Shown piece after piece: positions 8,950 through 64,000 of a DNA stretch of 64,000 nt (position 1 is the first letter of the stretch; every line of letters starts with the position of its first letter). The notes under the pieces were generated by a model that worked only from the letters and a program-made list of their open reading frames with translations, had not been told where the DNA came from and searched no databases. A program made the translations under genes and the position numbers. Source of the DNA: Chloranthus sessilifolius (taxonomy: Eukaryota > Streptophyta > Magnoliopsida > Chloranthales > Chloranthaceae); the NCBI GenBank assembly GCA_021018995.1, contig CM037598.1:46515185-46579184 (forward strand), given 5' to 3'.

Positions 8950-10107
8950 AGGTGACTACAGAAGTCCCAAATGAATACCAAACTGACGGGAAGGCCACCA
9001 ACAAGGACCTAGGGTTCAAGTTGTTCAAGGAGTAACGGCGGAAGAAGAAATGACGGAGGGGCCAAGGAACGTCAAGAAACGTTGGGCAAAGGCCCTAGGG
9101 ACCTGCCCAAGGAAGAAGAGCCTCTGCCCAATATCGCTTGAGCTAGTGAGACACTTCAGAAGGTGGTCGCTTGAGCGAATATGAGCCCAAAATCAAGGCC
9201 AAAATTCTTGGGTTTTGGTCGCTCGAGCGACCCTTGGTTGTCGCTCGAGCGACTCTTGGTTGTCGCTCGAGCGACCATTCCCCTTAAAGATTCCCATTCG
9301 AGCGACAACCAAAGTCGCTCAAGCAAGTCAAGTGACGTGTTTTGTCATTTTTATCCCTTTTTCTTGTTTTATTTTGATGTCCAATGTAAGTTACCACTTA
9401 GGATAATATAGTACTTTCCTATTTTGGTCTATTTCTATTTGTAAACACTATAAAGCATACCCTGTAAGAAAATTTTGGCAGTCGATGAAATTAATGAAAG
9501 TGCATTGCATTTTAGGCTTGTGAGAAGCTTTGAAGAATGAGTCTTCTTCCCCATTTGGGGTTTGGTGTGAGGCCAAGGGTGAGATGCTCATTTATCTTTG
9601 ATCTTCTCTTTACTTCTTGATCTTGCTTGGTCTTCCTACTCCCATTTTAATCACTTATATCTAATTTTTCCCTTTTAAGTGATTATCCCAATTCTCAAAC
9701 CTTAGATCTAGAGATACCTTGATGTCCATCCTTGTGGATCGTCTCCAATCCTAGCCCGTCGATCCATGACCGTTGTTGGGCTCGAGCTTGGTCGATTTAC
9801 TCTATTTAACTGTTTCAATTCAAAGCCCTAGCAAGGAACTACCGATTCCACCGCGAGCCACGATCAAACGCCCCGACATAGATGAAGCTAGAGTTCTATC
9901 TCTAGGATCGCCTCTTCTGCATTCCCTAACGGATTTCGCACATTGGCTTGGACCCTACGTTAATCTAGCATGGTCACTTAAGCGGAATCCCACGAAATCC
10001 TAAGGTATCACTTTAATTTGTGGTTAATTATTTAATTAATTAGTTTAATTTTTGTAAATTAGCATATCATAGGCATTCACGGATTTTAGGGTCATTGTCC
10101 TGCATCA
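8950..10107 (+). repeat. 5' LTR of element F (left end uncertain)
   Basis: It ends TGCATCA at 10107, three to four bases before the primer site. A TATA (CTATAAAG) lies at 9448-9455. Palindromes with a CTCGAG core crowd 9134-9320. The left limit is a guess from where the sequence character changes, because the partner LTR is absent. Confidence 0.5.
9134..9320 (+). promoter_or_regulatory. CTCGAG-core palindrome array upstream of the F TATA
   Basis: Three perfect 12-base palindromes TCGCTCGAGCGA start at 9219, 9241 and 9263, exactly 22 bases apart, each followed by a C and a CTTGGTTG-like spacer. Degraded copies lie at 9134 (TCGCTTGAGC), 9166 (GTCGCTTGAGCGA), 9297 (TTCGAGCGAC) and 9314 (GTCGCTCAAG). 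The array ends about 130 bases before the TATA. Its regulatory role is inferred. Confidence 0.65.
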
Positions 10108-10111
10108 GTTT

Positions 10112-10124
10112 TGGCATCAAAGCC
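10112..10124 (+). other. Primer-binding site of element F (initiator-Met type)
   Basis: TGGCATCAAAGCC, two changes from the standard TGGTATCAGAGCC complement of plant initiator tRNA-Met, directly after the LTR end. Confidence 0.65.
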
Positions 10125-10318: not shown

Positions 10319-10462
10319 ATGGGCACGAACGTGCTTGTCGATGCTCTTAAGGACATCAAAGCCTTGATGATTACCACAAATAAGAGGTTGAATGTGATGG
10401 AGGAAGCCCACACGACTATGGTTGCCTATAATGGTGCGCTTCTCAACCGCTTGGAGCTGTTG
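10319..10462 (+). mobile_element. N-terminal gag segment of element F
   Basis: From the ATG at 10319 a frame reads MGTNVLVDALKDIKALM and continues to GALLNRLEL, where element E begins. This is a helical, coiled-coil-like start resembling gag N-termini of related plant elements. The rest of gag lies beyond E, from about 14338. Confidence 0.6.
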
Positions 10463-10576
10463 TGATGGGGACATTGGTTACGAACCATATCGCGCGTACC
10501 GATGTTGGAAGAAGCATAACAAAAATGGAAACTAGAATTAGAATTAAGGAATCTGCGTATTGGAACAATGCGCAGT

Positions 10577-10619
10577 CAATCGATACCAGGCTTTGATCGA
10601 TCGACTGTGGCCAGGAAAA

Positions 10620-10670
<51 letters not shown>

Positions 10671-10790
10671 GCTTCGATCGATCGAGCACTCTTGTCAATC
10701 GATCGATTGCTTAGTGACCAGAGAGCTATATTTTATATATATGCTCGATCAATCGATGCTTCACATCAATCGATCGATTTTTCGTGAAAA
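10577..10790 (+). promoter_or_regulatory. ATCGAT-core palindrome array in the 5' LTR of E
   Basis: Palindromes include TGATCGATCGAC (10594), TCGATCGATCGA (10674), CAATCGATCGATTG (10696, a perfect 14-base palindrome), CTCGATCAATCGATGC (10744) and AATCGATCGATT (10768). The array ends about 95 bases before the TATA. The partner array in the 3' LTR (13446-13632) is still recognisable but more degraded. Confidence 0.65.
10620..10670 (+). repeat. Alternating TA microsatellite inside the E LTR
   Basis: About 50 bases of nearly pure TA alternation, interrupted by one TG, sit between two ATCGAT palindromes. A much shorter run is at the matching place in the 3' LTR (about 13508-13520), so the repeat has changed length since insertion. 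Confidence 0.85.
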
Positions 10791-11534
10791 TGAATTACGT
10801 CAGAATTCGAAGTTGAGTTTTGAGAGCATACATGTCTTTTTTTTAGTAGTTATTTTAGGGTTTTCTTTTGTTTTAGAGGCCTCCTATATAAGGTCTTTTA
10901 ATAAACAATGTAATTAGTTGATTGATTATTGAATGAAGAGAGAGTTGCTTTTGTACAAACCCTAAAAAGTTTGAGAAGAGTTTTCAACCGAGGGAATGAA
11001 TCCTTCAAACCTTGAGGAGTGAGCAATCATTTCTCGTGCGACTTGGTGCGAAGCTGACGTACAGCCATGGTGTAAAGCTTTGGAAAATCATTAGTGTGAA
11101 ACCTTAGAAATCTATCCCTTTTATTTATGTCTTTCTAGATTATTGTCAGGTAATATCTTCTTTATTTCCATTGATAAAAGATCAAAATTCTAAAATCTTA
11201 TTCCTTGATATCTTTAATTTTCCCCTTTTAGTGAGTTATTTCTTCAAGTTTTATTTCATCCAAAATCTCTGAGGAGTTAAGAGACAATACTGTATTTATC
11301 ACTTGATGCCCTAAACTAGAACGAAACTCGAGTTCCTCCATCGGAGCCATTTTTCTAGATCGGGAGATTGTCATGCATGCAAATGCTAAAATGAATTAAT
11401 TGAACTATTTTATTGAATTCAATGAATTAATTGTATGTGTTGCATGATTTTGAATATTTTTGCTATTCAATTCACTCTAAAGTTAATCCCAAATTTGCAT
11501 ATTAGGGTTTTAGCATTTTATCCCGCGTAAGTTT

Positions 11535-12617: not shown

Positions 12618-13333
12618 TTGATTATTCAAGAGCATGTCGAGAAAGAGAGCAATGAATTACACGAAGAAGTGTATGAACCGTGTGATACGCCAAGTGATGA
12701 CGAAGGTGAAGTTCCCACCAAAGCCGTAGGTTGCATTAGGACAGCTCCTATTACCAGAGACAGTGTTGATAGTGTGTCCATATCAAGTGAGTCCTTAGAG
12801 TTGGTAGAAGCATATCCTCATTCTAAATTGCATGGGAATAATAAACATAATTTATTGAACATTGGAGATATGCCTGATCGCACTAACACGGTAAATATGT
12901 TTAATGAATTTGATACTAACAGTTTTATATTAATTCCTGATAGTCTCGAGCATGTGGAATATTTTCTAATCTCAGAAAAGGTTAAGGATGGAGGTCTAAA
13001 TTTTCCTGTAGACAAGAGCAACCATTTGATAGTTGTCGTAACGGATCTTACGCCTATTTTAGATCCCACAACCCCACCCTTTGATCCATTCCTTATTGAG
13101 CACCCAATCGAACCACACCCATTTACCCAGTTTCTATCCCTTACCTTACCTGTGCAATATGAGAAAAGATCAAATGAGAAGGTCATAGGATTTCTGAGCT
13201 TCCATGCCATTGAAGGTAATAATCGAGAGTATCTCACAGCGTGGAAAGGTAAGACAAGAGTTGAGCTTCCGAAGTGTGCCATCCATGGGTTCCCTAACTC
13301 ATCGGAGATGAGTTTTTCCCACCCGAAGAGTAT
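12618..13333 (+). mobile_element. Open stretch after the zinc knuckle of E, product not recognised
   Basis: This open frame starts IQEHVEKESNELHEEVYE, resembling the acidic segment after the knuckle in F (EEVYEPEVTP). It should then lead into protease, but instead continues with sequence I do not recognise. Near the end it contains REYLTAWKGK, which might be a remnant of a chromodomain-like EYLVKWKG motif found at the integrase C-terminus of chromoviruses. If so, the interior joins the end of gag to the end of pol. Its openness in an old element is notable. It runs on into the 3' LTR. Confidence 0.45.
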
Positions 13334-14332
13334 TGATGGGGACATCGGTTACGGACCATCTCGTGCGTACTGGCATTGGAAGAAGCAGAATGAAAATGGA
13401 AACCAGAACCAGACTTTAGGAATTTGCGTAATGGAGCAATGCACAGTCGATTGATCGATCCCAAGTTTCGATCGATTGACTGTGTCCAGAAAAACTTATT
13501 TTGGCGTATATATATATATATGCTTTGATCGATCAAGAACTCATTTCGATCGATCAATTGTTTATTGACAAGAGAGCTATATTTTATATATATGCTCGAT
13601 CAATCGATGCTTCACATTGATCGGTCGATTTTTTACAAAAATGAGTTTCGTCAGAATTCGACGTTGAGTTTTGAGGGCATACTTAACTTTTTTTTAGTAG
13701 TTGTTTTAGGGTTTTCTTTTGTTTTAGAGGCCTCCTATATAAGGTCTTTAATAAACAATGTTAATTACTTGATTGATTATTGAATGAAAAGAGAGATGCT
13801 TTTGTGCAAACCCTAGAAAGCTTGAAAAGAGTTTTCAACCAAGGGAGTGAAACCTTCAAACCTTTAGGAGTGAGCAATCATTTCTCATGTGACTTGGTGC
13901 GAAGCTGACATACACCTGCGGTGTGAAGCTTCAAAAAATCCTTAGTGTGAAGCCTTGGAAATCTATCCCTTTTATTTTTGTCTTTCTAGATTATTGTCAG
14001 GTAATATGTTCCTTATTTCCATTGATAAAAGATCAAAATTCTAAAACCTTATTCCGTGATATCTTTAATTTTCCCCTTTCAAGAGACGATATTATAATTA
14101 TCGCTTGATACCCTAAACTAGAACGAAACTCGAGTTAATTCATCGAAATCGTCTTTCTAGATTGGGAGATCGTCGTGCATGCGAACGCTAAAATGAATTA
14201 ATCGAACTGTTTTATTGAATTCATCAAATTAATTTTATGTTTTGTATGATTTTGAATATTTTTGCTATTCAATTCACTCTAAAGTTAATCCCAAATTCTC
14301 ATATTAGGGTTTTAGTGTTTTATCCTGTGTTA
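13334..14332 (+). repeat. 3' LTR of element E
   Basis: Aligns with 10463-11530, including TGATGGGGACAT, the ATCGAT palindrome region, CCTCCTATATAAGG and the terminal GGGTTTTAG. Slightly shorter because the TA run is reduced. It is followed by the target-duplication copy GGTTG and then by the resumed gag of F. Confidence 0.75.
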
Positions 14333-15979: not shown

Positions 15980-16451
15980 TGGATGTCTTCTCGGAAGACT
16001 TGCTCGATGAGCTCCCTCCAATGCATGACATCTGACATGCCATAGACTTAGTTCTCGGATCTACCCTACTGAACCTGCTCATTATCGATTGAATCCGGTT
16101 AAACATGTCGAGTTAGTACGGCAAGTCGATGAGCTCCTCCGGAAGGGGTTCATCCAAGAGGGCTTGAGCCCTTGTGCCATACCCGCACTACTCACGCCCA
16201 AGAAGGATGGTTCTTGGAAAATATGTGTGGATAGTCAGGCCATCAACAAGATTACAATCAAGTATCAATTTTCTATATCGAGGCTCGACGATATATTGGA
16301 TATGATGGTTGGTGCCACTATCTTCTCTAAGATAGACCTTAAAAGTGGTTATTATCAAGTCTGCATCCGCCTAGGTGATGAAGGGAAAATCGCTTTCATG
16401 ACCAAGGATTGTCTTTATGAGTGGATGGTCATGCCTTTTGGGCTTTCAAAT
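15980..16451 (+). mobile_element. Reverse transcriptase N-terminal part of element F
   Basis: Recognisable segments are [53 protein letters not shown] and [12 protein letters not shown]. These are the fingers and palm motifs up to just before the YxDD block. The copy ends at that point, where element A begins. Catalytic residues beyond are not present in the window. Confidence 0.7.
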
Positions 16452-17720
16452 CATCAACCATCCAAATGCTGCCATCATTCTATGGGCTAAGTAAAGAAGA
16501 CACATATAAGCATATAGATGAGTTCCTTGCTTTATGCACCACATTTAATATTGCTGGCTTGGGAGAGGAAACCACCAAACTGAAGCTTTTTACTTTTTTC
16601 CTAAAGGATAAAGCCAGAACTTGGCTCTCCATGCTCCCAGCAGGCAGTATACAATCCTGGAATGATCTCCAATGCTAGTTTTTGGCTAAATTTTCCCTAT
16701 GTCTAAAACCAGCCAGTTGAGGAAGAGCATACTTTCCTTTGCTCAATTCTCAACTGAAGATTTCTATGGAGTTTGGAAAAGGTTTAAAGAGCTGTTGAAG
16801 TAATGTCCACACCATCAAATTCCTCAGTGGCAACTTATCTAGAGCTTCTATCAAGGAATTGATCCCAAGAGTAGGGATATGGTGGATGCCTCATGTGGGG
16901 GCACTTACCTCCACAAGACAGCTGATGAAGCTTGAGAACTTTTTGATGTCATCAATGAGAATTTCATGCAGTAAGAGTCTCTGTTCTGAAATGACATTGA
17001 GATTCCAGCTAAAATGGTAAAAGAATCCACCTCTAGAGGGAGGATGTATGAGGTCAATGTATCCAATTACCTACAAAGGAAGGTGGACAGTCTGAGCCTG
17101 AAATTTGACAAGTTAATGGGTGTGATGCAAACCACCCCAATTTTAGGTGGAGGTAAGACAATTATCAACAACCACAGCAATACCAGCCTACATTGTAATA
17201 CTGACCATAGCCACAATATCACTAGGGCTATGCACCTAGACAGCCTTTCCAGCAATTAGCCCTACAGTCACACCAATTGGCTTTGCCCCCACCACAGCCT
17301 AAAGCCCCATCTTTTGAAGAATGGGTTTTGTCATTACTGTAAAACTTGGGCTCTTTGTCCCAAACTGTTAACTCTCATAGTCAAAGCATAAAGAAAATCG
17401 GAGACTGGCATGGTCAAATCTCTAATGCTTTGACTAAAAGAGAGGAGGGCAGGCTTCCTAGCCAGACCATGAACAATCCAAAGGGTCATTACTTGATTGG
17501 TGAAGGTTTCTCAACCCATGAGGAAGCCAAAGTAGTCACAACTCTCAGGTCTGGCAAGATAGTGGATAACCAGGTGGGCAGGGAGAAAAATGAGAGAAAT
17601 GAGAGTGCAGAAGAAGAAGAGGACTCATCTCCTGCTGCTGAGTAGCAGGAGGACAATAATGGGACAATTTTTAAGCCCCAACAAAATGAAATAAATGAAG
17701 AAAAAATAAAAAAATAAAAA
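16446..17720 (+). mobile_element. gag region of element A
   Basis: It begins within gag at a segment equivalent to MLPSFHGLSKEDPYKHVDEY of C and continues through FNIAGLGEETTKLKLFTFFL and KDKARTWLSMLPAGS (retrotransposon gag family). It ends with the linker phrases NNPKGHYLIGEGFSTHEEA and VVTTLRSGKIVDNQ seen in other Athila gags. The N-terminus is absent because the copy starts at the junction with F. Confidence 0.65.
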
Positions 17721-17779
17721 GTCAATCATGAAATAGCTAGGCATGCAGCTGAGGTACCAGTAGTACCACAGCTGCCATT

Positions 17780-18430
17780 TCCTCATGCTCTTGCAAGCCC
17801 CTCTCCTTTTGACAAGGGGAATGTTAGAATGGAGGAAATATTTGAGACCTTCAAGCAAGTTAAGATCAATTTACCTCTGCTTGATACCATCAAACAGGTC
17901 TCTGCCTATGCTAAGTTCCTCAAAGACCTTTGTACACAATAGAGGAAGGCAAGGATCCATTTGTCCAAGAAGGTCTTTACAGCAAAAATAGTTAAATCAG
18001 TGCTGTTAATAGCCACACCTGCAAAACTGAAAGACCCAAGGGTTCCTACCATCCCCTATATTATTAGGGACCACACCTTAGGCAAGGCTCTCTTAAACTT
18101 GGGAGCCAGTGTTAACCTGCTGCCATATTCAGTATAAAAACAGTTAGGTTTGGGGGAGCTGAAACCAACTCCTATTGTGCTCTAGCTGGCTAACAGGTCT
18201 GAGAAATGACCTATAGGAATTGTTGAAGATGTGTTAGTTCTACCCTGATGATTTTTTGGTCTTGGACATGGAGCCTTCAAAGAGTAGCACCCCAATTTCT
18301 GTGATCTTGGGCAGGTTATTCTTAGCCACAACCAATGCCTGCATTCAATGCAGGTCTAGGGTGATGGAGGTTACATTTGGAAAAAAGAAGGTTAAATTAA
18401 ATGTGTACAATACTACCAAGTAATCTCAAC
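17780..18430 (+). mobile_element. Protease region of element A
   Basis: Landmarks match the protease of C: VRMEEIFETFKQVKINLPLL, SAYAKFLKDLCT, LGASVNLLPYS, LGELKPTPIVL and VILGRLFLATTNACIQC. In this lineage the active-site region reads DLGASVNLLP rather than the more common DSGAT. The copy is broken in several places. Confidence 0.6.
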
Positions 18431-18453
18431 TGAACAATGAGGATTGCTTTGCA

Positions 18454-19550
18454 GTGGATGTACTAGAGGACCTAGTAGGGGCGAATTTATCCAATCTGCT
18501 GGATTGGGTTAAAATTTGTGAGGAATTTGAGAATGTATGGACTGAGGTTCATGAGGAGGGGGCCCCAAATTACGTTACTGCTGAGACCTCTATGGGCCTA
18601 GTGCAACACTCCAAGGCACCTTTGTTGCCTTCGATAGAGTGTCCACCTGATCTGAAGCTTAAACAGCTGCCAGAGACATTAAAATATCTCTTCCTAGGAC
18701 AAGAGAATATGTCAGTCATCATCTCATCCTCTCTCTCTATAGAGCAGGAAGAGGAGTTGCTTGAAGTCCTTAGGAAACATAAGAAACCAATTGGCTAGAC
18801 CATTGCAGATTTGGAGGGAATTGACCCATCTGTGTATATGCACAAGATGCATTTCAAAGAGGGTCTAAGCCCTCAAGGGAAATGCAGAGGAAGTTGAACC
18901 CTCATATGCAGGAGGTGGTCCTAAAAGAGATTATAAAACTGCTTGATGCAGGGGTCATATAACCCATTTCAGACTCTAAGTGGGTCTCACCTATCCAGGT
19001 GGTCCCCAAAAAGGCTAGCATCACAATTGTTACTACTGAGTCTGGGGAGTCAGTACCAACTAGGGAGATCACTGGTTGGAGAGTGTGCATTGACTATTGA
19101 AAACTGAACTCCAAGACAAGAAAAGACCATTTCCCCCTGCCCTTCATTGATCAAATTTTGGATAGGCTGGCTGGAAGAGCAGTTTATTACTTCCTAGATG
19201 GATATTCTGGTTATAATCAGATACTTGTGTATCCTCAAGATTAGGAAAAAACAACATTCACATGTCTATTTGGCACTTTTGCTTATAGAAGAATGCCTTT
19301 TGGACCGTGTAATGCTCCAACCACCTTCCAAAGATGCATGTATGTAATTTTTTCAGACATGATTGACAAGTTTTTAGAGATTTTTATGGATGATTTCTCA
19401 ATTTTTGGGGACAGTTTTAGTCAGTGTTTACATCATCTTAGCCTAGTTCTTCAAAGATGTGAAGAGACCAACCTAGTCTTGAGCTAGGAGAAAAGCCATT
19501 TTATTGTCCACCATGGCATTGTGCTTAGCCATGTGGTCTCCCCTAAAGGC
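18454..19550 (+). mobile_element. Reverse transcriptase region of element A
   Basis: The linker PDLKLKQLPETLKYLFLG and VIISSSLSIEQEEEL precedes the enzyme. The enzyme segments are RKDHFPLPFIDQILDRLAGR-like, FLDGYSGYNQI-like, FGTFAYRRMPFGPCNAPTTF and the catalytic FMDDFSIFGDSF. The order and spacing match C. Broken. Confidence 0.7.
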
Positions 19551-20215
19551 ATTGAGGTTGATAGAGTAAAGGTTGACTTAATCTCACACTTGGCCCCACC
19601 AAAAATAGTCAAACAAATCAGGTCTTTCTTAGGACATGCAAGATTTTATAGAAGGTTCATCAAAGACTTCAGCAAAATTTTCAAACCTCTGTGCCACCTG
19701 TTGTGTCAGGATGTGCCATTTAATTTTGATGCTGAATGTCTTGATGCTTTTGAGGTGTTGAAGAAATGTTTAACCACTGCCCCTGTGATCCAAGCCCCTG
19801 ACTACTCCCTACCTTTTGAATTAATGTGTGATGCATCAGACCTGACTGTGGGTGTTGTTTTAGGTCAGAGGGAAGATAAACTGCCTATTGTGGTTTATTA
19901 TGCCAACAAATCACTAACCGAAGCTTAGCTAAATTATACAATAACTGAGAAGGAGCTTCTGGCAATAGTGTTTGTTGTGGACAAATTTAGATCCTATCTA
20001 CTTGGGTCTAAAATTATAGTCTTCACTGATCATTCTGCCCTCAAGTACCTACTGGTTAAGAAAGATGCAAAGCCAAGATTGATTAGATGGATCCTCCTGC
20101 TGCAGGAGTTTGAACTTGAAATCAAAGATAAGAAAGGAGTAGAGAATGTGGTGGTTGATCACCTGTACAGGATTTTAGTTGAAGAGTTTGCTACTACACG
20201 TGAGAGATTCTTTTC
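19551..20215 (+). mobile_element. Connection and RNase H region of element A
   Basis: Connection: QIRSFLGHARFYRRFIKDFS. RNase [33 protein letters not shown]-like, and [20 protein letters not shown]. This is the usual Ty3/gypsy layout in which RNase H follows reverse transcriptase directly. Confidence 0.7.
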
Positions 20216-21530
20216 CTGATGAGCAATTATTTGCCATCCAGTCAGTTGTCCCTTGGTTTGCCAACATAGTCAACTACCTTATTGGAGGTAGGATCCCTTC
20301 CCACTGGTCCAAAATGGACAAAGACTTGTGCTTCTCACAAGTCAAATATTTTTTCTGGGAGGATCCATGCTTGTTTAAGTATTGTGCAAACTTGGTTATT
20401 AGGAAGTGTATCCCTGATATTGACATCCACAGTATTATTAGCATGTGCCATGAAAATGCCTATGGGGGTCACTTTAGTGGGCAAAAGATAGCAGTAAAGG
20501 TGCTACAATGTGGTTTTTATTAGCCTTCCTTGTTTAAGGATGCCCATGAACACTGCCAAGCATGTTTAAGATGTCAGAGGATGGGTGGCATTTCAAAGAG
20601 AAATTCAATGCCATTGCAACCCATCCTTGTTATAGAGCTATTTGGCATTTGGGGGATAGATTTCATGACCCCTTTCCTTCTTCAATGGGATACAATTTTT
20701 CCATGTGATTGTAGATTATGTTTCCAAATGGGTGGAAGCAGCTGCCACGAGGACAAATGACCACAAGGTTGTCCTCAAATTTATCAAGGAAAATATTTTC
20801 TCCATATTTGGCACCCCTAGAGCCATCATCAGTGATGGAGGCAACCACTTTTGTAACAGCACTTTGAGAGCTTGCTCAAGAAGTATATTGTTACTCATAG
20901 GATTGCTACCCCATATCACCCACAGACTAGTGGGCAAGTGGAGATTTCCAATAGAGAAATTAAGCATATCCTAAAGAAGACAGTTAGGACTGATCGGAAG
21001 GATTAGGCTATGAAGCTTAATGATGCATTGTGGGCCTATAGGACAACCTATAAGACCCCAATTGGAATGTCCCTATTTAGATTAGCCTATGGCAAAGCTT
21101 GTCATCTACCAATAAAGTTGGAATGCAAGGCCTTTTGGGCCATTAAGAGCTTGAACTTGGATCTAATTGCTGATAGCGCAAATAGGAGATTGCATCTGTC
21201 AAAGCTGGAGGAACTAAGGTTGGATGCATATTCCAATACAAGGATTTATAAAGAGAAAGTCAAGCATTCTTTGACATGAATCTCCTCAAAAAAAATTTCC
21301 TGATGGAGCTAAGGTATGGCTTTTCAACTCCAAGCTTAAGTTCTTTCCTGGTAAGCTGAGAACCAGATGGGATGGACCTTTCACTGTCATCCATGCATTT
21401 CCATCTGGGGCTGTGGAGATTATGGACCCCACCTTTAGGAGGATTATGAAAGTGAATGGTCAGAGACTCAAGCTGTATGTGGAAAATTCTATGGAAACCT
21501 ATGCAACCATGTACTTTCAAGAACCTACCA
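20216..21530 (+). mobile_element. Integrase region of element A
   Basis: The zinc-binding region has MCHENAYGGHFSGQKIA and then HCQACLRCQRMGGISKRNS (HHCC pattern). The catalytic core shows [28 protein letters not shown] and, near 20935, [12 protein letters not shown]. The C-terminal part has [19 protein letters not shown] and VMEIMDPT-like phrases. Broken in several places. Confidence 0.65.
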
Positions 21531-21539
21531 AATGTTGAG

Positions 21540-25650: not shown

Positions 25651-25656
25651 AGTTTT

Positions 25657-47830: not shown

Positions 47831-47841
47831 TTCCCCATGCC

Positions 47842-48492: not shown

Positions 48493-48567
48493 CCTCAATT
48501 CAGTTCTGAGGAATGCTTTCTTGTTGATTTATTGGATGAACGGGTAGAAGAAACTTTACCATAGTTT

Positions 48568-50330: not shown

Positions 50331-51670
50331 TATCAATGAATCTTTCCCTGATGAGCAACTTTTTGCTATCAGTGTACACACCCCTTGGTTTGCAAATATA
50401 GTCAACTTTTTGGCTATTGGAAGAACCCCTCAACACTGGAATAAAATGGATAAAGATCTTTTCTTCTCAAAGGTTAAACATTTTATTTGGGAGGATCCTT
50501 ATCTATTCAAGATTTGTGCAGACCAAATAATTAGAAGATGTGTCCCTGAAGAAGACTTTCATAGCATACTTTCCATGTGTCATGAACAGGCCTGTGGAGG
50601 TCATTTTAGTAGAAATAAAACTGCTGCAAAGGTTTTGCAATGTGGATTTTATTGGCCCACACTTTTCAAAGATGCATTGCAGCACTGTAAGTCTTGTCAG
50701 AATTGCCAGAGATTGGGCAGCATTTCCAAGAGAAACTCAATGCCTTTATAGCCCATTTTGGTAGTTGAATTGTTTGATATTTGGGAGATAGATTTCATGG
50801 GACTCTTTCCTCCTTCAAATGGTTTTAATTTCATCTTAGTAGCTGTGGATTATGTATCCAAATGGGTTGAAGCCACAGCCACTAAAACCAATGACCATAA
50901 AGTTATCCTGAAATTTTTAAGGGATAACATTTTTTCCAGGTTTGGTTCCCCCAGAGCTATTATCAGTGATGGGGGGAGCCATTTTTGTAATAAGCATTTT
51001 GAAGCTTTATTGAAAAAGTACTCTGTGACTCAAAGAGTAGCTACTCCATATCATCCATAGACCAGTGGACAAGTGGAGATTTCCAATAGAGAAATCAAAC
51101 ATATACTGGAAAAGACTGTGAAGAAGGACAGAAAGGATTGGTCCTTTAAGCTGAATGATGCATTGTGGGCATATAGGACAGCCTATAAAACCCCAATTGG
51201 CTGTCCCCATTCAGATTAGTCTATGGCAAAGCATGCCATTTACCAGTGGAGTTAGAATATAATGCCTTTTGGGCTATTAAAACCTTGAACATGGATCTTA
51301 CTACTACTGGTAATCATAGGAAACTGTAGCTTGCTGAGTTGGAGCTGAGAATGGATGCATACACCAATGCAAGATCTTACAAAGAAAAAGTTAAGGCTTT
51401 CTATGACAAAAATCTGCTGAGAAAAGATTTCATAGCTGGCTCTAAGGTATGGCTATTCAACTCAAAACTTAAGTTTTTTTCTAGAAAGCTGAGATCCAGG
51501 CGGGAAGGGTCATATACTGTCATTCAAGCATCTCCTTCTGGGGCTGTTGAAATTATGGACCCAAGTGATGGGAGAACCTTGAAAGCAAATGGTCAAAGGC
51601 TCAAACCATGCATTGAAAATACCCTGGAGCCTGTGCCGACCATCTATCATCAAGAGCCTCCACAAATATG
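50331..51670 (+). mobile_element. Integrase of element C
   Basis: Zinc-binding region: ILSMCHEQACGGHFSRNKTA and HCKSCQNCQRLGSISKRNS (HHCC). Core: [20 protein letters not shown] then DYVSKWVEA (first Asp region), [16 protein letters not shown] (second Asp) and [11 protein letters not shown] (Glu). C-terminal part: KAFYDKNLLRKDFIAGSKVW and FSRKLRSRREGSYTVIQASP, ending NTLEPVPTIYHQEPPQI at 51670. I see no chromodomain, as expected outside chromoviruses. Broken in its second half. Confidence 0.75.
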
Positions 51671-52372
51671 ATGATAAGCAACTGTATTATATGTATTTTA
51701 CTTGTGTTTGTTTTGTAGTTTTTGCATAGTTTATTTCTCTCTATTTTTAGTCATGTTTTACACTCAATTCGAGAAGTTTACAATATGTGAAAAATCAATT
51801 CACAAAAAAAAAAAAAAAAAAAATCATCTCGAAAAGTTAAATTTCCTTTTCGAAATGGATCTGGACCTGTAACTAACTGCTCGAAAAGAATGATTAGCTT
51901 TTCGAATATGTGGTGTTGAAGACTTTTGCTTTTCAAAAAGTTGTTTCTAAAGCCATTTGCTTTTCAAATGGTACTGATGCCATTCTCCTTTGTAAAAAGG
52001 ACTGTTTTGAACTTTTTGAAGACTTCAAAGATGCTTTGCGAAAATCGTTTTGAGCATATTTAAACCCTTTCGAAGCAAGGGTTTCATATTTGAAAGCCGT
52101 CCCAGAGTGTCCTGTTTCACAGAAAACCCATTTTCCTTCCATCCCTGCGTGCTTTTAAAGTTCATATCCAATTTCCTTCATATTTGTTCCACTGATTAAG
52201 CTTGAAGAGAGGGACCCTTTGCTTCTGATTCTGGTGGATTTAATCAAGCGATCAAAGATTTCAAGCTAAACCCTAGATTTCGGTATTTTTCTTTGCATAT
52301 CTTCTGTTTGTGTTTTACAAAGTTGATTTCTGTGTCAGCATACATTGTGTGAGATTCAAACAAAGTTTTAAA
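51671..52372 (+). promoter_or_regulatory. Spacer with TTCGAA-word array and leader intron before ORF3 of C
   Basis: TTCGAA occurs at 51849, 51901 and 52069, with CTCGAAAAG at 51828 and 51880, around an A-run and many degraded TTTTCAAA words. A TATA-like CATATTTAAA lies at 52055-52064. The leader has AAACCCTAGATTTCG (52268), then GTATTT (52283) and an acceptor GTGTCAG near 52338, before the ATG at 52373. The layout parallels B. Confidence 0.55.
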
Positions 52373-54830
52373 ATGGGGAAAGCTGAAAAATCGCTAGCTG
52401 CAATGTTCCCTAAGTCTTCTGCTAAGAAAATTAGCCAACCCTCCACAAAAGGAAAAGCCAAAACCTAAGCCAAGAGGAAACTGTCGATGGATAAAGCTGA
52501 TAAAATTGAGAAAGGGAAGAAGGTTAGACATCAGGAACCCATCCCAGCAGCTGACCCTAGTCCTGAGCCTGAGCTTCCTCCTCTTCCTATGCATTTGGTA
52601 CTGCCACACCCTTTCATTAAAGCTCAGAAGCTGATCCCAGAGCTTATTGTTGATGAAACCTTTTTCTTGAACAAACCTGAATGTAAGCTATCCTTGAACT
52701 ACATCAGGGATGCTTCACTGACCAATATCTTAACCCCTCTTTCAGAGAAAATCTATCCATGAATGGTGAGATTATGGTACCAAAACATGGTAAAAGTGAT
52801 GGAGAAGGATGCTGATGTCCCTACTCTTGTAATTTTCATTGATGATTGTGATTTAACAGTCACTTATGAAGACATTGGAAATGCCTTGGGAATACCATTT
52901 CAACATGATCCGGCTGGTCCTTTAGCTGCACCAAAGACAGCTTCTTTTAGAGAAATGGCTGCACATCTAACCCAAGGCATAGTTGGAACTGGGCAGTCCA
53001 TCATGAGGAGAGACTTAGCACCTCAATTTTTGTTGATGGATTCCATTTTGAGGGGATGTTTTTATGTCACTGGGCACAGCCAGGAAAGAAGAACACCCAT
53101 TTTGGAGGCCCTCTTTCATTTCTCTAAGGGGCAATTCTTCAATGCCCCTATGCTAATTTTTGAAGCCATGGCTGACATCAGTGTCAAGATGAAGAAGGAG
53201 CAAAAAATAGCTGGAATACCATTGGTAGGCTGATCACAGCCCTACTAAGAGCCAAATTTGACATTGATGAGCAAGAGCCATTTGAGATTGTCTCTCCTCA
53301 CGCTTTTGGGAAGAGGGCTTGGACTACAAGCCAAACCATGTTGAATAGAATGAGGGAAGAGGTTGAGCCAGCCCAAGAACCTGCTATACCTGCACCAGCC
53401 CCTGCAGCTGCCATTGAACCTGCTATACCAGACCCTGAGGTGACCAGCTCTTTAGCTGCACCTATTTCACTTGCAGCTGACATTGAACAAGCTGTCATTA
53501 CTGAGGTGACCAGCTCTTCAGCTGCACCCATTGTTGAAGAGGTCATCATCTTACCCACTTCACCTAGCACAACTCCTATTCCTTCACCCATTCCAGCAGT
53601 CCCATCACTCATAACCACCATAATCCCAATTGCAGACTCTCCCTCTACACCAACCACTCCAGCCATACTTACACCACCAATTTCACCTAACAATGTCCAA
53701 GATATGGCCACAGATTTTGTTGAACACTCTCCTAGCACTCCCCTTCTCCAAAGCTTCTCAGGTTCACCTGCTCATTCAACTCATACACCTGAAATCACTC
53801 ATACCCCTGAACCTGAGATATTCACAACAGAGGCCTATTCATCTTTGATGGGATCTATCTTGGAGAATATTGGGCTTGAATCTGTACCCATACCTGATCC
53901 TCCTCATTTCACCCATTTGGCTACTTCACCCTTTACAGCCATTTCACCCATTGCCCCTCAACCATCTACATCAATTTTACCAGCCCCTACTTTGCATACC
54001 ACACCCACACCTGACACCATAAGCCAAATCTTTACCTTTCTCCAATCCATCCAAGCCCAACTCTGAGATCAACACAGACAACGATGCATGACAAATTCCA
54101 TTCTCCAAACCTTGGCCTCCACATCCCAAACAACCTTTGCTTTCCTGACCAAGCAACCCAAACAGATCCGGAGGTAATAGTTTTAGATCCACCCATCCTC
54201 ACTGTGTCTGACCATGCTACCCAATTCGAACCTGAGGCAATACTTTTGGATTCACCTACACCCATCCTTGATGTCTCTGCTCAAGCCACCCAAACTAGCC
54301 CTGAGGTAGTGCTTGTAGATTCATCTTTCCCATACCCCACTGCTGGAATACATATGGTCCCCTACCACTCCATTCCCATCTCACGTTTTGCCACTCTTAA
54401 AAGGGCTATGGAAGATAACCCTTACATCTTTCGCGATGTCCTTAAGGGGATTATCGATTTCCACACTTACATCAAAACCCCCTATGAAGACCAGATTCAA
54501 AAACTGGAGCTGTTTATGAAATTTGAGAGAGAAAAGATGCAGGACCTGTTGGGCCAAACCTTTCAGATGGTTAGGAGTGAGCAGCACAAAGTTACCATGG
54601 TGCAAGCACAGCTTGAACAAGAAAAATTGAGGGCTAGTAGACTTGCAAAATATATTGGCCTCACCAAAAAGATCAAATCTGAGGAATACACCGAGCTGTA
54701 AGCCACAATCCAGGAGAAGGCTAAATCGAGTTCAGACTCCAATACTGACTCAAGTTCTGACTCTAACAGTGATTCCAGTTCTAATCCCATTGAACCAAAT
54801 TATGATACAGATTTTGACCCCAGTTATTAG
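52373..54830 (+). mobile_element. ORF3 of element C
   Basis: It starts MGKAEKSLAAMFPKSSAKK, with a lysine-rich N-terminal part. The shared domain follows: MVRLWYQNMVKVMEKD, VIFIDDCDLTVTYEDIGNAL, AAHLTQGIVGTGQSIMRRD, LLMDSILRGCFYVTGHSQER and LIFEAMADISVKMKKEQK. Then come a Pro/Thr/Ser-rich region, a coiled coil (QTFQMVRSEQHKVTMVQAQL; EKLRASRLAKYIGLTKKIKS) and a Ser/Asp-rich acidic tail ending DTDFDPSY. The position is that of the Athila env-like gene, but I see no signal peptide or transmembrane helix. A few breaks. Confidence 0.65.
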
Positions 54831-56582: not shown

Positions 56583-58437
56583 TGTTGAGAACTAGAAAAC
56601 ACCATTTTCCACCCCTTAACCTGAGTCTTGATAGACCTTTGAGAATACTAAATAAGTGTTTTTAGCGTTTGTTTCTGACTAACAATGAAGGAGCTTAACC
56701 TCGAAAGCGAAAAAAGTGCCAAAAAGATGATGACTCATGCTAATCTAGGGAAAGAAGGAGAAGGAACAACCTCACTGGCTATCAAAATGCCTAAACTAAA
56801 GAGGACAAAGGACTGGTTTCAACCTGGAAAGAGGTCTGGAGCTCTTCGAACAAAAGAATGCATAACAGTATACTTTTCGAAAAGAACCTAAACTTTTCGA
56901 AAAGAACCTAATCTTTACGAAAAGAACTAAAAGCTCCGGGCTTAGTTTTCGAAGAGCACTTGAACTCTTCGAAAGGATTCCTGACCTATTCGAAAAGAAG
57001 AGAACTCCTTAACGACACGTAATCGCGAAAAGAGCTTTGAAGTCACAAGATTTTGCGAAAAGTTCGCAAAGCTGCGAAAATGATATCTGAAGATTCCCGG
57101 TAGCAAGGGCAATTCAGTAATCTCTGCATGCGCCCCAATGCATTTAAAAACCCAGGGACATTCTGAAAGATTCTGAGCATGAACCGAAGGCATATTCCAC
57201 CCCATGTGAACACCCAAAGATGAAATTACTTGGCGGGAACTTCTAGAAGCTCAAACAGATTTTTGAAATTACATAACAGAATTGATGCTTCTGTCACCTG
57301 ATTGGTTGAAACAGATCATGCAGTTCTGATTGGCCAAAACTAATCTGGATCCTTGTGCTCGCCTCCTATTGGTTGATACAGATCTAACCAATTCTGATTG
57401 GTTGATACACATCTGAGCTAGACTTGGAGAAAACTATAAATAGACGAAGCATTTGCCCAATTTGGGTATCTAGATTTTGAGTTTCATTTCTATTGCCCCA
57501 TTTCCATTTCAGATAGCTTGTCTAAAATTTCTGTAATAGCCTAGCTTTTATTTGTAATTGAGAACTGTGAGATATTTCTATAATTCAAGTGAGAATTGTA
57601 TTCAAGACTATAAATTCGAGAGTTGTTTAAGTTGTGCTCTGTAATTGTAATGGTGAATTTGAAAAGGTTACTGTGAATAGTACGTTCTCAATCAGATTTG
57701 TGTTGAGGGTTCCCTGTGATCTCCGTATTCATTAGATTCCTTTAGATTTACTGTTTTTAAAGCAATTTCTCTTAATTCATTGTCCCTGTGAGAATCTGTG
57801 TTTGTAACCTGATTTCTCACAGCATTTGTAGTGGTGTTTTTTGTTCTTAATCAAGGATTCGGAGTGAAGACTATTGGATGATCTGTGTCCATTGAAGTGG
57901 ACAGACCGTAGCCATAAGTTCAACTCAATTCCAATCCTTGAGTAGGATTAGTTTCTCTTGCATCTGTGCTAGTACCCAGATGAAGATTGGATAATATCTC
58001 ATGTGTTTTACATTTATTCTCATTCTGCAATCAAGTACTAAGTTGAAGTTAGATATTATTTCTCCATTCTTATTAATTTACATCAAATCTCTCCAACTCG
58101 GATCTTGATCATTTAGTTTAATTTTTACTTTTCTCATTTAGTTAATGTGACAAATTCAACCTCCCATCTTATGTGCTTTGTAGATAGGATCAGAGGTCAG
58201 ATCTGGTAGCTCAGATCTGGAGGTTTATCTTACATTTTAAATCAATTCCCTGCTGACGATCTTTTACTCACTTACATTTAAAACTTGCTACAATTGACCC
58301 TGATCTTGCAGGCTAATTAACTTCTCTCTGTGCTGATATTTCTTTATTCTTTTTCGTTTTCCAAATTTAGTATAATTCATCATTTGCAAATCTGTTTTCA
58401 AAACACAAATAAATCATGCACACTTAGAACAGCAACA
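56583..58437 (+). repeat. 3' LTR of element C
   Basis: It runs from TGTTGAGAACTAG to CAGCAACA. TTCGAA words occur at 56845, 56877, 56896, 56948, 56968 and 56989, followed by GCGAAAAG words to about 57085. TATA (TATAAATAG) lies at about 57435-57443. Its length matches the L LTR. It directly abuts the truncated LTR of D at 58438. Confidence 0.8.
56840..57085 (+). promoter_or_regulatory. TTCGAA-word array upstream of the C TATA
   Basis: Six TTCGAA palindromes, two of them within the longer palindrome CTTTTCGAAAAG (56873-56884 and 56892-56903), plus CGAAAAG and GCGAAAA words. The array ends about 350 bases before the TATA. The same word recurs in the spacer before ORF3 of this element. Confidence 0.65.
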
Positions 58438-58807
58438 GTACCTCTCGACAGCTTCTTATACACATGTTCAACCCCACGACTGCTTCATTCCTTGCTCTCA
58501 GAACCTCTCGACAGCTCTGCTTTGTGCCTCCACAGCCGGCACACATCTTGGGTGTGTTGTTCTTCTTTTGTTCAACACTCAGCAACCCTTTAGTAGGTTC
58601 AATCTTTATTTCTTACAGCTGGACTTGGTCTCAGGCATCTTCCTATTGGGTAGCACAGTGCTTCTTGGGCTTTTAAGAGAATATTTGCACTAAGTGGCAA
58701 TTTATTGCTTATCTACAAAACACACTTAAAGCACCTTATTAGTCAGCTCAAGGTTCCACCAAAGGTCAGGTTAGGAGGTCAAAAATGGTATTTTCCACTG
58801 CTTAACA
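58438..58807 (-). repeat. Truncated 3' LTR of element D
   Basis: It starts TGTTAAGCAGTGG (minus strand, from 58807) after the purine tract TAGGTTTGGGGGTA. It shares AAATACCATTTTTGACC with the start of the L LTR. It contains two GCTGTCGAGAGG words. Only the first 370 bases are present before the end of the C LTR, which suggests that C was inserted within it. Confidence 0.7.
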
Positions 58808-60759: not shown

Positions 60760-63485
60760 CTACATAGAGTCAGAGTCAGAGTCAGAGGTGAAGATGTCAG
60801 CGAATCCTTGTTGACCAGCATAAGCTCTTAACTCAACTCTCTTCTCAGCCTTGGTCTGCTCTTTGGTAGTGGCTACCTCCTTAGACTGGGTAGCTGTCTC
60901 CTTTTCAACCTATAGGGCAGGCTCAGCTGCTTGGGCAGTCTTTCTAGTCAATTGAGTAATTTTCCTTTCTAGGATTTTAATTTTCTTATCAGACAGCTGA
61001 ACTTGAGTGTCATACAATTCCTGGGCTGCCTTGTTACGAGCTTTGGAAGCTGCCAACCTCTCCTATAATCCATCAGCTCTTGATTTCTCAGAGGCTGAAA
61101 TGAGCTTTTCAGCTTCATAGTGGAGTAAAATGCTTTGCCATCCTTTGGATAGCTTCAACATTTCCTAGTTGTAATCTATAATCATTTGCTCTATCTTTGC
61201 TTCATAGGGTATCTCAATTGATCTGCGGAGGGCAGCCATTCCTCACACCACATCCTTCTTAAGGTAAGGGTTCTGTTACATGATACGGAGGAGGGTAGAG
61301 TATAGAGGAGGCAAGGGAAAGGAAGAGGTAGGGAGTATGGACTGAGGGGATGTAAGTGTCGGATCTAGGTCAGTGTGAGTTGGGAGAAGGTCCTCCACAT
61401 CTATGGCAGCATCTAAGGCAGCTACAACAGGTGGGGGAATAGTGGGAGGTAGGGTAGGGGCAGGCTGGGGTTCTGGTTTAGGTGTAGTTTGAGTAGAGGC
61501 ATCCTTATAGGTAGGAGAAGGGATGGCTAGTTGGTGGGAAGCTTTGGTTAAAAGTTACAAGGTGGAGTGGATATCTTAGAGGCTAAATGGCAGGGAGGAT
61601 TGGCTGTGGAGTGTGGAGTTCATGGCTTGGAGTGTGGCCTCCATTGATGATTGGGTTTGGGTGTGGGCCATCACTTGGGCTTGAAGGGAAAGTAAAAGTT
61701 GAAGGATTTGGGGTAAAGGATTGGATGTGACAGGTGCTGTGGATTGGATTGGTGGAATTGGTTGGAAAGAGGAAGTGTGGGTATGGTCAAAAGGTGGGGT
61801 AGATGAGTGGGTAGGTTGTGGAGAGTCAGGTAATGGAGTGTAATCATACCCAATAATCTCCACAATGGATTTTATCAGGGATGAAAAATCCTCAGTGGTC
61901 AACTGGTCCTGGGTGTGTGGAGGTGAGATGGGAAAAGTGGAATCAAAGTCAAAGGGAACAGATGGAGGGGAAGAAGTGGTTGGGCCAGTTGATGAAGTTG
62001 GTGCAGGACTCAAAGGTGGAGTGGCTAATATGGATGGGTGGCTGGAATGGTGGGTGAAGGTAAGGTAGGGATTGGGTCAATGGTAAAAGGAATGGATAAG
62101 GGTATTGATGTGGTGATGGTGGAGATGAATGTTGAAGTGCTGGAAGGTATGGAGACTGGAATGGAAGGTAGGGAAACTAATATGGATGGTGTGATAGAAG
62201 GGATGGTGGTGAGGCTAGCCCTCTCAGAGCTGACAGAGGATACAACTAGGACAAATGGGGGCACAAATGGAGTAGCAGATGTGAGTAAAGGATCATAGGA
62301 GATTGTTGCAGAGGTTTCAGGTGGAGGTATGGATTTAGTGACAGCTGTAGGGTGAGGCTCTGAGCTCACAGCAGCAAATGGGGCTGCATGTGGAGCTTCC
62401 ACCTTAGTATCTGTACTGGACTTGTGTTTACTCTCACCCATGAGAGTCCTACTGGCAGACCAGGCCCTCTTCCCAAAAATTATAGGGGTCACCTTTACCA
62501 CTGGCTCATCTACTTCGAACACAAACTCCTTTCTTTTTAACAAGGTCGTGATGAGCCTGCTGTAAGGGAGCCCAGGTAGAGCTTGAGCCTTCCTACACTT
62601 GTCATTCACATCCACCATGGCCTCAAACACCAAATGAGCAGCATTTATGAATTAGCCCTTGGAGAAGAAATATAGGGCATCCAATATTGGCACTCTCCTC
62701 TCTTAATGGTGTCCACTCACATAGATGTTTTTCCTCAAAATTGAATCAAAGAATTGCATGTTGGGGTGTAAATCTCTTCTCATAATTGACTCCCCAGCCC
62801 CCACAATGCCTTGAGTGAGGTGCCTGGCCATTGCTTTGAAGGAGACATTCTTAGCCAGGCCATAGGTTGGATCAAAAACAGAAGGGACTCCCAATGCTAT
62901 CCCAATATCTCTATAATCCACCACCATCTACATATGATCAATCAAAATTACAAGGCAGGGCTCAATTGAATCTGGCTTGGTTTGTTTCCTGAGATTCTGA
63001 TACCATAACTTAACCAGCCTTGGGTAAGATATTTCATTCAGTGGGCTCAACATGGGTGTCAAGCCTACCTTCACCAAATAATTCAAAGTGTCCTGACACT
63101 CCTCTACCTTAGAGAAATAGGGGGTGTCAACCATAGTCTCTGAGATCAGACCTAATGCATCCACAAATTCATTGGGTGTGGATCTGAGCAAAGGGACTTC
63201 AGGATCCAATTCAGGGTCAGGCTCAGCCTCAGGAATTTCAGGCACAAGGTTAGGTTGTGTCTCAGGGACCTCCTCAACAATGTCTTCACTGGTTTGAGCC
63301 CTCTTTGATTTCTTGGATTTCTTAGATTTCACAGTTTTCTCAGCCTGGTCCATGACCAATTTTCTCTTTACAAGTGGGGTCTCCTTAGGCTTGGTGGTTT
63401 GCCTAGTGGATTTCCTAGTGCCTTTGGTGGCAGATTTAAAAGGCACTTTGAAAAGATTAGCCAAGATGTCCTCTTGATCAGCCAT
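60760..63485 (-). mobile_element. ORF3 of element D
   Basis: It starts MADQEDILANLFKVPFKSAT with a lysine-rich N-terminus (KTVKSKKSKKSKRAQTSED). Domain: YPRLVKLWYQNLRKQ, VVDYRDIGIALGVPSVFDPT, ARHLTQGIVGAGESIMRRDL and FFDSILRKNIYVSGHH, then PYSRLITTLLKRKEFVFEVD. A long Thr/Pro/Ser region and a coiled coil (about 61250-60830) follow, and an acidic tail, TSDSDSDSM. The architecture is the same as C. A few breaks. Confidence 0.65.
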
Positions 63486-64000
63486 TACTCAATCAACACA
63501 ATATCAATCACTACTAATTCAATAACAATTACCACAAAAACCTCTTGAATGCTCAAATGACCCAAACAAACTAAAGATTGAAATACCATGCTTGTAAATC
63601 ACAAAGAGGAGCTGAAGAAAAGCTTACCAGCAGAAACCTAGGGTAAAAGATCTTAAAATGCACAGCATCAAACCAGTTCAGTCCAGATGCAAAGTGTAGC
63701 TTTTGATGAATTGAAGCAATGGGAAAAATAGCCAGGAAGTTACTATAACAACCAGTGAGATAAAGAGAAAAAGCAAAATGGAAAAATCGCTAGAGCAAAT
63801 CTAAAGCGCAAAGAGAAGCTGTCGAATGGAAAAAATGAAGCTGTCGTTAGGTTTAAAGCAGTGGGAAATGACTTTCGACAGGATTGGGGCAAGGTGTCGA
63901 CAGGTTTATGCAACCTGTCGAAGAGTAGAAAATCACTTATCCGCGCGATAGGTGTATGCAATCCGGTCGAAGAGTTCAAAAGACATAAATAATAATTCCA
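63486..64000 (-). promoter_or_regulatory. Spacer before ORF3 of D with GTCGA words
   Basis: Plus-strand positions of the words: GTCGAA 63821, TTCGACAGG 63874, GTCGAC 63896, CTGTCGAAGAG 63915 and GGTCGAAGAG 63965. On the minus strand a leader with CCCTAGGTTTCTGCTG and GTAAGC (about 63645-63625) precedes the ATG, comparable to the spliced leaders of B and C. Confidence 0.5.

Follow-up and report, generated by a model that had tools for sequence, protein, structure and literature searches.

A 64,000-nt stretch of the Chloranthus sessilifolius genome (contig CM037598.1 of assembly GCA_021018995.1, positions 46,515,185 to 46,579,184; here called the window) is a nested stack of plant long terminal repeat (LTR) retrotransposons, labeled A to F and L, in which short CG-bearing palindromic words are clustered at promoter-like positions. 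We favor, with moderate confidence, a reading in which these clusters act as cis-regulatory arrays of operators recognized by a sequence-specific factor, placed both at LTR promoters and at promoters in the linkers ahead of a third open reading frame (ORF3). Each element would repeat a short CG-centered palindrome upstream of its LTR core promoter, and the Athila-like elements would have this kind of word again in the linker between pol and ORF3 (between gag and ORF3 in B), which probably holds a second promoter, for ORF3. All results come from this one window, in which the sample comprises four ORF3 linkers (A, B, C, and D).

The words quoted in a preliminary description of this DNA were found at or near the positions given there: TCGCTCGAGCGA at 9219, 9241, and 9263 in F, CAATCGATCGATTG at 10696 in E, CTTTTCGAAAAG at 56873 and 56893 in C, GTCGAC/GTCGAA at 63821 to 63971 in D, CTCGCG/TCGCGA clustered in both B LTRs, and TTCGCAAAG/CTTTGCGAA at 4061 to 4282 in L. 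The F 5' LTR (8941 to 10110, + strand; defined from the sequence and a TATA scan, with its outer end open and its partner LTR outside the window) carries seven copies of GTCGCTCGAGCGAC at 9134 to 9327 (+), three of them within a 22-bp tandem repeat. The LTR pair of E (5' LTR, 10462 to 11527, with approximate ends; 3' LTR, 13333 to 14330; both +) has six words of the CAATCGATCGATTG type at 10574 to 10781 (+) and five words at 13444 to 13631 (+), respectively. A (TA)n run at 10622 to 10670 lies inside the first of these arrays and is far shorter in the 3' LTR (13507 to 13521). In the LTR pair of B (23285 to 25650 and 31744 to 34122, both +), a word model placed the arrays at 23485 to 24030 and 31946 to 32478 (both +). 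The C 3' LTR (56583 to 58437, +; from the sequence and a TATA scan) holds eight words at 56842 to 57080 (+). The L LTR (2790 to 4529, − strand; delimited approximately by alignment to the C LTR and a TATA scan) holds 11 words of the CTTTGCGAAAAG type at 4036 to 4286 (−), spaced 20 to 22 or 29 to 31 bp apart and partly in a tandem repeat. The D LTR fragment (58438 to 58790, −) has two words, CCTCTCGACAGC, at 58441 to 58452 and 58505 to 58516 (−).

Among the linkers, that of A has five words of the CTCGCGA/CTTCGTGAAG type at 21811 to 22015 (+), which are common with the B LTRs, and that of B has a CG-bearing stretch at 27936 to 28128 (+) with one clear word, CCTCGCGCAG, at 28020 to 28029. The C linker contains 10 words of the CTTTTCGAAAAG type at 51765 to 52076 (+), some decayed and not in a tandem repeat, and the D linker contains seven words of the CCTGTCGACAGG type at 63818 to 63974 (−), likewise free of tandem repetition. 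This last cluster had been described as belonging to a retrotransposon LTR promoter, which does not fit its place in a linker 5' of ORF3 in a minus-strand Athila-like element.

The repeated words are longer than the NTCGAN hexamer by which the preliminary description had each element marked: GTCGCTCGAGCGAC in F, CAATCGATCGATTG in E, CTTTTCGAAAAG in C with a one-base variant in L, CCTGTCGACAGG or CCTCTCGACAG in D, and CTCGCG(A/C)AG in B. Their cores are TCGA or CGCG, and the C LTR and the C linker, taken separately, gave the identical consensus CTTTTCGAAAAG. The NTCGAN rule applied to F, E, the C LTR, and the D linker. It failed for the D LTR (CTCGAC), for half of the C linker (CTCGAA), and for B and L, there being two NTCGAN words in L, one in each B LTR, and none in the A and B linkers. 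A four-base N-TCGA-N code as the true unit was rejected because of these failures.

Enrichment within the window was assessed against 300 dinucleotide-preserving shuffles (200 for single words). There were 58 NTCGAN palindromes (shuffle mean, 25.7), 161 TCGA (97.2), and 14 CG-centered 10-bp palindromes (4.5), none of which was reached in any of the 300 shuffles, and one 6-bp palindrome occurred in 8 copies within 250 bp, compared with a shuffled maximum of 3. The claim that CG/TCGA palindromes are enriched over dinucleotide-matched expectation thus held within the window, the clusters being above chance. For single words, the counts were 19 against 7.3 for ATCGAT, 18 against 5.4 for CTCGAG, and 7 against 2.7 for GTCGAC (p = 0.015); TTCGAA was not significantly enriched (14 against 10.4, p = 0.18). 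The arrays contained 13 of the 19 ATCGAT, 10 of the 14 TTCGAA, 4 of the 18 CTCGAG, and 1 of the 7 GTCGAC copies, with 14 CTCGAG and 6 GTCGAC copies lying elsewhere in the window. A word-free scan for 8-mers present at least four times within 300 bp picked up F, L, the C LTR, and both E LTRs.

Agreement between linkers and LTRs was examined by comparing the CG-containing 6-, 7-, and 8-mers of each linker, on either strand, with eight LTR U3 regions against 1,000 dinucleotide shuffles of the linker. The resulting grid of 4 linkers by 8 U3 regions has 7 own-family cells and 25 others. L was counted with C because their LTRs are related (83% identity over 405 aligned columns), and A was counted with B, the A LTR lying outside the window and its words being of the B type. 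With 7-mers, all seven own-family cells had p ≤ 0.025, and only 1 of the 25 others fell below 0.05 (C linker with the B 5' LTR [B5], 0.043). The individual own-family values were 0.001 for A with B5 and with the B 3' LTR (B3), 0.025 for B with B5, 0.002 for B with B3, 0.001 for C with C and with L, and 0.002 for D with D. With 6-mers, all seven cells had p ≤ 0.005, again with 1 of the 25 others below 0.05 (C linker with the E 5' LTR [E5], 0.018), and with 8-mers, six own-family cells had p ≤ 0.010 and none of the 25 others fell below 0.05. The shared 7-mers of the A linker were spread over five or six sites.

When the window was scanned in 400-base steps with the 7-mers of each LTR, the C LTR had its highest counts in the L LTR (53 hits) and then the C linker (25), the next being 9; the L LTR had them in the C LTR (30) and then the C linker (22), the next being 19. 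The B3 scan was led by the A linker (22), followed by 42501 to 42900 (16, with a low share of its CG words) and the B linker (14), and in the B5 scan the L LTR (30), A linker (20), C LTR (17), and 42501 to 42900 (13) preceded the B linker, which was fifth, tied at 11. For the D LTR, the D linker ranked top outside the LTR itself, with 6 hits, the next two windows having 5. The top windows for E and F (13 hits for E5, 12 for the E 3' LTR, and 10 for F) lay outside all linker arrays; no ORF3 linker of E or F was seen in the window.

Sharing of this kind could in principle reflect old copies of one block, made by template switching, that have diverged outside the words. The flanks of shared words of at least 8 bases were therefore compared over 15 bases on each side without gaps. 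Identity for the A linker was 0.263 with B5 and 0.285 with B3 (random, 0.255 and 0.254), for the B linker 0.256 with both (random, 0.254 and 0.250), and for the C linker 0.314 with the C LTR (random, 0.266) and 0.290 with L (random, 0.263). Because these flanks are at or near background, the word alone is shared in A, B, and largely C, which cannot be said for D. Copying of a single block gains something from the flanks of D (0.37 against 0.26) and C (0.31 against 0.27), but those of A and B are at or near background, and words that outlive their flanks would themselves require selection; we regard this origin as very unlikely.

The spacing of the words was analyzed with word models that allowed 3 to 5 mismatches. 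Neighboring words in C, L, D, and F stood mostly two or three DNA turns apart, with 33 of the 39 neighbor spacings in the C linker, C LTR, L, D linker, D LTR, and F measuring 20 to 22 or 28 to 33 bp. For these six arrays pooled with the E 5' LTR (spacings of 14 to 70 bp, n = 43), the best period was 10.45 bp, and 0 of 3,000 random sets did as well in a scan of 9 to 13 bp. The pool excluded spacings beyond 14 to 70 bp (one, of 77 bp, in the E 5' LTR), the E 3' LTR, whose spacings were only listed, and the B and A arrays, which were analyzed apart with limits of 14 to 100 bp. The C and D linkers together gave p = 0.0003 at 10.5 bp and 0.008 with the period scan, and the C LTR, L, and F each gave p < 0.001 at 10.5 bp, but with tandem duplications. 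From CG positions only, with no word model, 4 of 10 arrays had p < 0.05 (C LTR, L, C linker, and D linker); F, the E 5' LTR, both B LTRs, and the A and B linkers showed no phase at that level. The same positions pooled without the B 3' LTR gave p = 0.0007 (n = 70), and 374 spacings of CGs outside the arrays showed no 10.5-bp phase.

Next to phasing, the persistence of CG sites was considered, a site being counted when CG was present in at least one of two compared LTRs. Between C and L, 8 of 15 array sites and 7 of 49 sites outside were kept as CG in both (Fisher p 0.004); the corresponding counts were 22 of 44 and 8 of 21 for the B pair (p 0.43) and 9 of 18 and 9 of 30 for the E pair (p 0.22). 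The C-L result lends weak support to conserved words and fits selection on them, with the caveat that aligning repeats may favor matching words. A reading of the arrays as unmethylated or protected CG islands was dropped; retention was higher in the arrays all three times, significantly once, and is not evidence on methylation.

These data bear on neutral turnover, in which slippage and unequal exchange would homogenize simple CG words that have no function. Tandem Repeats Finder (TRF) detected tandem repeats in L, F, and the C LTR, and array CGs of the B and E LTR pairs were not significantly better kept than others, both as such turnover would have it. Slippage, however, cannot place the same word about 5 kb away among dissimilar flanks, nor can it phase the words of the C and D linkers, where TRF found no repeat of the words. 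We consider neutral turnover quite unlikely.

Palindromes may also act through RNA, with hairpins drawing small interfering RNAs as proposed for maize Sireviruses, so that word sharing would be a by-product; Sirevirus palindromes have been reported, in the material cited here, as small-RNA hotspots. Sense-strand folding exceeded that of shuffles in F (z −12.2), the E LTRs (−5.9 and −7.5), the C linker (−4.2), L (−4.1), the B 3' LTR (−3.8), the D linker (−3.5), and the C LTR (−3.2), and antisense folding of the B 5' LTR reached −2.0. Against this, no clear excess was seen in the B 5' LTR sense strand (−0.7), the A linker (−0.9; antisense, −0.5), or the B linker (−1.2; antisense, +0.7), while 2 of 10 control stretches reached −4.6 and −2.4. 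Good folding is expected of any palindrome array, and hairpins predict neither spacings of two or three turns nor the same word at two distant places. A hairpin function was rejected on account of this inconsistency across arrays, and an RNA-based role overall appears unlikely.

The anatomy of the surrounding sequence is consistent with promoters. LTR arrays lie upstream of TATA boxes at 9449 (F), 10885 and 13736 (E), 24191 and 32663 (B), 57435 (C), and 3690 (L); none was seen in the D LTR, which is truncated in the window. The distance from words to TATA, previously put at roughly 80 to 600 bases, was borne out at about 110 to 590 bp in F, E, C, and L and extended up to about 715 bp in B. By eye, the C and L LTRs have CCAAT boxes between array and TATA. 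Among the linkers, B has the TATA box TATATATAA at 28109, A has the TATA-like ATTTAAAACCC at about 22025, and C has the TATA-like ATATTTAAACCC at about 52057; TTTAAA follows straight after the array in the A and C linkers and lies within it in the D linker. Each of the four linkers has an ACCCTA (telo-box-like) motif downstream of its words (22230, 28171, 52268, and in the D linker), followed at one such site in each of the B and D linkers by a candidate splice donor, GTAAG. This arrangement suggests an ORF3 transcription unit with a putative leader intron. A TTTAAA-ACCC box was also observed after the word array in the C LTR (57143), L LTR (3971), A linker (22025), and C linker (52057).

ORF3 might instead be expressed by splicing of the genomic RNA, with no internal promoter, and the linker words would then serve RNA processing, for example, or nothing. 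Splice acceptors have been predicted for the ENV gene of Athila and BAGY2 in the cited part of PMC2829016, and possible splice sites can be picked out by eye in the linkers upstream of ORF3. On the other hand, Athila6A has an annotated ENV ORF promoter (PMC4977677, in the portion cited), and splicing leaves both the LTR-linker word sharing and the TATA box of the B linker unexplained. Expression by splicing alone is clearly unlikely in our view.

Several observations weigh against the operator reading. The A, C, and D linkers have only weak TATA-like boxes. The word-free 8-mer scan missed both B LTRs and every linker, so that their words show only in comparisons between regions. The arrays of L, F, and the C LTR are partly tandem duplications, and because the L and C LTRs are related, their words, listed separately in the preliminary description, are not independent. 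The pairing of A with B was chosen after the words had been seen. In the B linker the word model recognizes a single word, that site contributes about half of the shared 7-mers (6 of 12 with B5 and 7 of 15 with B3), and the 8-mer value with B5 was p = 0.064. D depends on two words in its LTR and on a lead of 6 hits to 5 in the window scan, and the D linker flanks, at 0.367 against 0.257 for random (four matches), were above background. The phasing was noticed in the data ahead of its testing; the C linker is weak alone (p = 0.007 at 10.5 bp, 0.042 with the scan), as is the D linker (0.014 and 0.16), the E 5' LTR was not significant (p 0.14), and no phasing was found in the B LTRs (p 0.74 and 0.64) or the A linker (0.25).

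The sequence directly shows the words, their repetition, the family-wise sharing between LTR and linker, and the phasing in C, L, D, and F; protein binding, the promoter role of the linker, and shared control are what we infer from it under the operator reading. Palindromes spaced by whole helical turns would suit a dimeric factor along a single DNA face; such a sequence-specific factor, possibly binding cooperatively, would control genomic and ORF3 transcripts together and might be either a host protein or ORF3 itself. Homologous ORF3 sequences are present in A (first open piece, 22434 to 23267, +; broken by the insertion of B and going on past 34123), B (first open piece, 28410 to 28967, +), C (52763 to 54698, +; open pieces 52763 to 53230, 53176 to 54063, and 54015 to 54698), and D (open pieces within 61579 to 63488, −). 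Between C and A, pol was 81% and 68% identical in two stretches and ORF3 40% and 29% in two stretches, so that ORF3 evolves faster than pol in this pair. The ORF3 N termini contain basic stretches, as judged by eye. In a Pfam comparison at E ≤ 10 with 10 pieces of A, B, C, and D, the only matches among the four ORF3 N-terminal pieces were weak ones to Transposase_32 (C, E 0.0018, 18.6 bits with a cutoff of 45; B, E 0.078). No piece matched the VANC domains DUF1985 and DUF287, and the ORF3 pieces did not match PF03078. For two ORF3 pieces no homologs were found, and solved structures yielded nothing convincing (E 0.17).

The basic N terminus, fast evolution, and weak Transposase_32 match are suggestive as to ORF3 being the factor, and by analogy a self-encoded factor resembling VANC, the binder encoded by VANDAL transposons, is possible. 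A more specific proposal is a self-recognition circuit in which the fast-evolving ORF3 protein, through its basic N terminus, binds its own phased word at the LTR and at its own promoter and acts as a VANC-like activator or anti-silencer; this is tentative and on the unlikely side. The pairs nearest in ORF3 (C-D and A-B) also have the most alike words by eye, and this likeness and the divergence gap between ORF3 and pol are consistent with self-recognition, but common descent alone would also give likeness of word and ORF3. If such a circuit existed, changes in the word and in the ORF3 protein would go hand in hand, and an element lacking pol, such as B, would retain ORF3 because no other element could supply its private regulator.

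The assignment of A, B, C, and D to Athila-like Ty3/gypsy elements is taken from the domain order of C, the B primer site, and the homologous ORF3 in all four. The gag-pol regions of C (46337 to 51668, +) and A (16446 to 21540, +) were recognized by similarity comparisons, together with Pfam domains in C and Pfam RNase H matches at 19488 to 19925 in A. At 49198 to 50748 in C, where domain order was tested, RVT_1, RT_RNaseH, and Integrase_H2C2 occur in the Ty3/gypsy order. No RNase H family matched at a second place in this stretch at E ≤ 0.01; a second RNase H is described as a mark of the Tat lineage in the cited part of PMC10508981. The sole TGGCGCC in the window stands at 25657, next to the B 5' LTR, and no primer site for A, C, or D was found in the window. 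The Athila primer site, TGGCGCC..., is complementary to tRNA-Asp, and those of E and F resemble the tRNA-Met site. E and F differ from the Athila-like group, the F reverse transcriptase (RT) fragment being 32% identical to the C RT over 79 residues. The full order of pol, ORF3, and 3' LTR is present in C only; A has pol and ORF3 (its 3' LTR lies outside the window), B has gag, ORF3, and LTR with no pol match between gag and ORF3 (25650 to 31744), and D has ORF3 and the LTR fragment. B is inserted within the A ORF3, whose reading picks up after it, and the sequences flanking B, CTCCT and CTCCC, resemble a target duplication of 5 bp in which one base has changed. C and D are arranged tail to tail: in C, gag-pol occupies 46.3 to 51.7 kb and ORF3 extends to 54.7 kb, and D, on the minus strand, has its ORF3 running downward from 63.5 kb. 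The D LTR appears to be truncated by the C LTR. No relatives of the C pol were found among viral contigs.

Elsewhere in the window, 36528 to 46000 holds another retrotransposon, whose RT shares about 33% identity with the C RT, and many CG-rich windows, in which the 8-mer repeat scan found no clustered word. A match to Rfam snoR71 (score 52.5, gathering score 40) at 46607 to 46712 (−) falls in the C gag region; the family may include retrotransposon sequence, or gag may overlap a snoRNA-like stretch. An open frame at 7098 to 7676 (−) partially matches ubiquitin carboxyl-terminal hydrolase (E 7e-6) and is perhaps a gene fragment.

The preliminary description had interpreted the words as private binding sites or methylation-sensitive promoter switches, and as a repeated design independent of shared ancestry. 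Of the first two readings, private binding sites are the better supported, through word sharing at two promoter-like places, free of tandem repetition in the C and D linkers, and through phasing in C, L, D, and F; a methylation-sensitive switch is conjectural. The repeated design applies at most to the Athila-like group relative to E and F and not within the Athila-like group, where the C, L, and D words appear by eye to vary on a single skeleton, CT-N-TCGA-N-AG, and may have a common origin. If the pattern proved true genome-wide, two plant retrotransposon superfamilies would have reached the same two-promoter layout with private palindromic words, pointing to a general need for element-specific control, and the LTR-linker word agreement with its 10.5-bp phase would offer a sequence-only handle on the regulator of plant env-like genes and open the matter of anti-silencers encoded by retrotransposons to direct testing.

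The closest known system, as far as the portions of the papers cited here describe it, is that of the Sireviruses, and the earlier statement that no description of such a pattern was known is wrong in kind, since Sirevirus CG boxes have already been described (PMC2829016). Bousios et al. 2010 reported palindromic repeated motifs (RM boxes) upstream of the LTR TATA in 13 Sireviruses and also upstream of ENV in nine ENV-bearing elements (Table 3), favored an internal ENV promoter, and called the motifs Sirevirus-specific within the Ty1/copia set examined (PMC2829016). As here, the boxes are numerous, palindromic, and CG-bearing and vary between elements, and the Tnd-1 box, ACAATCGATTGT, is near the E word; some Sireviruses (OPIE-2 and PREM-2) share a box (PMC2829016). 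In contrast, Sireviruses are Ty1/copia elements whose boxes, except that of Tnd-1, have a CGG-CCG core, whereas the words here have TCGA or CGCG cores and lie in Ty3/gypsy Athila-like elements with ORF3; helical spacing is not mentioned for the RM boxes in the cited parts of that report (PMC2829016). The domain order and families of C are those of Ty3/gypsy and not of a Sirevirus backbone. A box upstream of both the LTR TATA and the ENV-like ORF was found in C; in the other elements the layout is partial, with two LTR words and no LTR TATA within the window in D, a linker without its own LTR in A, and one linker word in B. On sequence grounds, the Athila-like arrays would be working like Sirevirus RM boxes without being members of that group.

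Other systems resemble parts of the arrangement, again as described in the cited portions. Athila6A has an annotated ENV ORF promoter with start sites, as proposed here for ORF3, and word arrays or agreement with LTR words are not mentioned in the part cited (PMC4977677). Pol-less Athila elements with gag and env resemble B, which has LTRs, gag, and ORF3 with no pol match, and word arrays are likewise not mentioned in that part of the report (PMC2410132). Sunflower Athila has an additional 3' ORF, as here, with a predicted nuclear localization signal; its protein matches PF03078, whereas the ORF3 pieces do not (PMC11728184). In VANDAL elements, the targets of VANC are short motifs, often tandem repeats in noncoding regions, and related elements have different ones (Hosaka et al. 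2017, PMC5735166; PMC10398659). VANDALs, however, are DNA transposons; VANDAL21 has YAGTATTAC as its motif, and their binder, VANC, is known and is encoded by the element, whereas the binder here is putative (PMC5735166 and PMC10398659). More broadly, cis-regulatory regions of transposable elements are often repeat arrays, sometimes palindromic (PMC10760457). No prior description of such word arrays in Athila was found in the open-licence PMC literature, among the best 10 to 25 matches where result lists were long. The two-place layout in Sireviruses (PMC2829016) and the ENV ORF promoter in Athila6A (PMC4977677) are thus already known, and new, as far as our searches show, are a Sirevirus-like layout in Athila-like Ty3/gypsy elements, its different core words, the statistical agreement between LTR and linker words, and their helical phasing.

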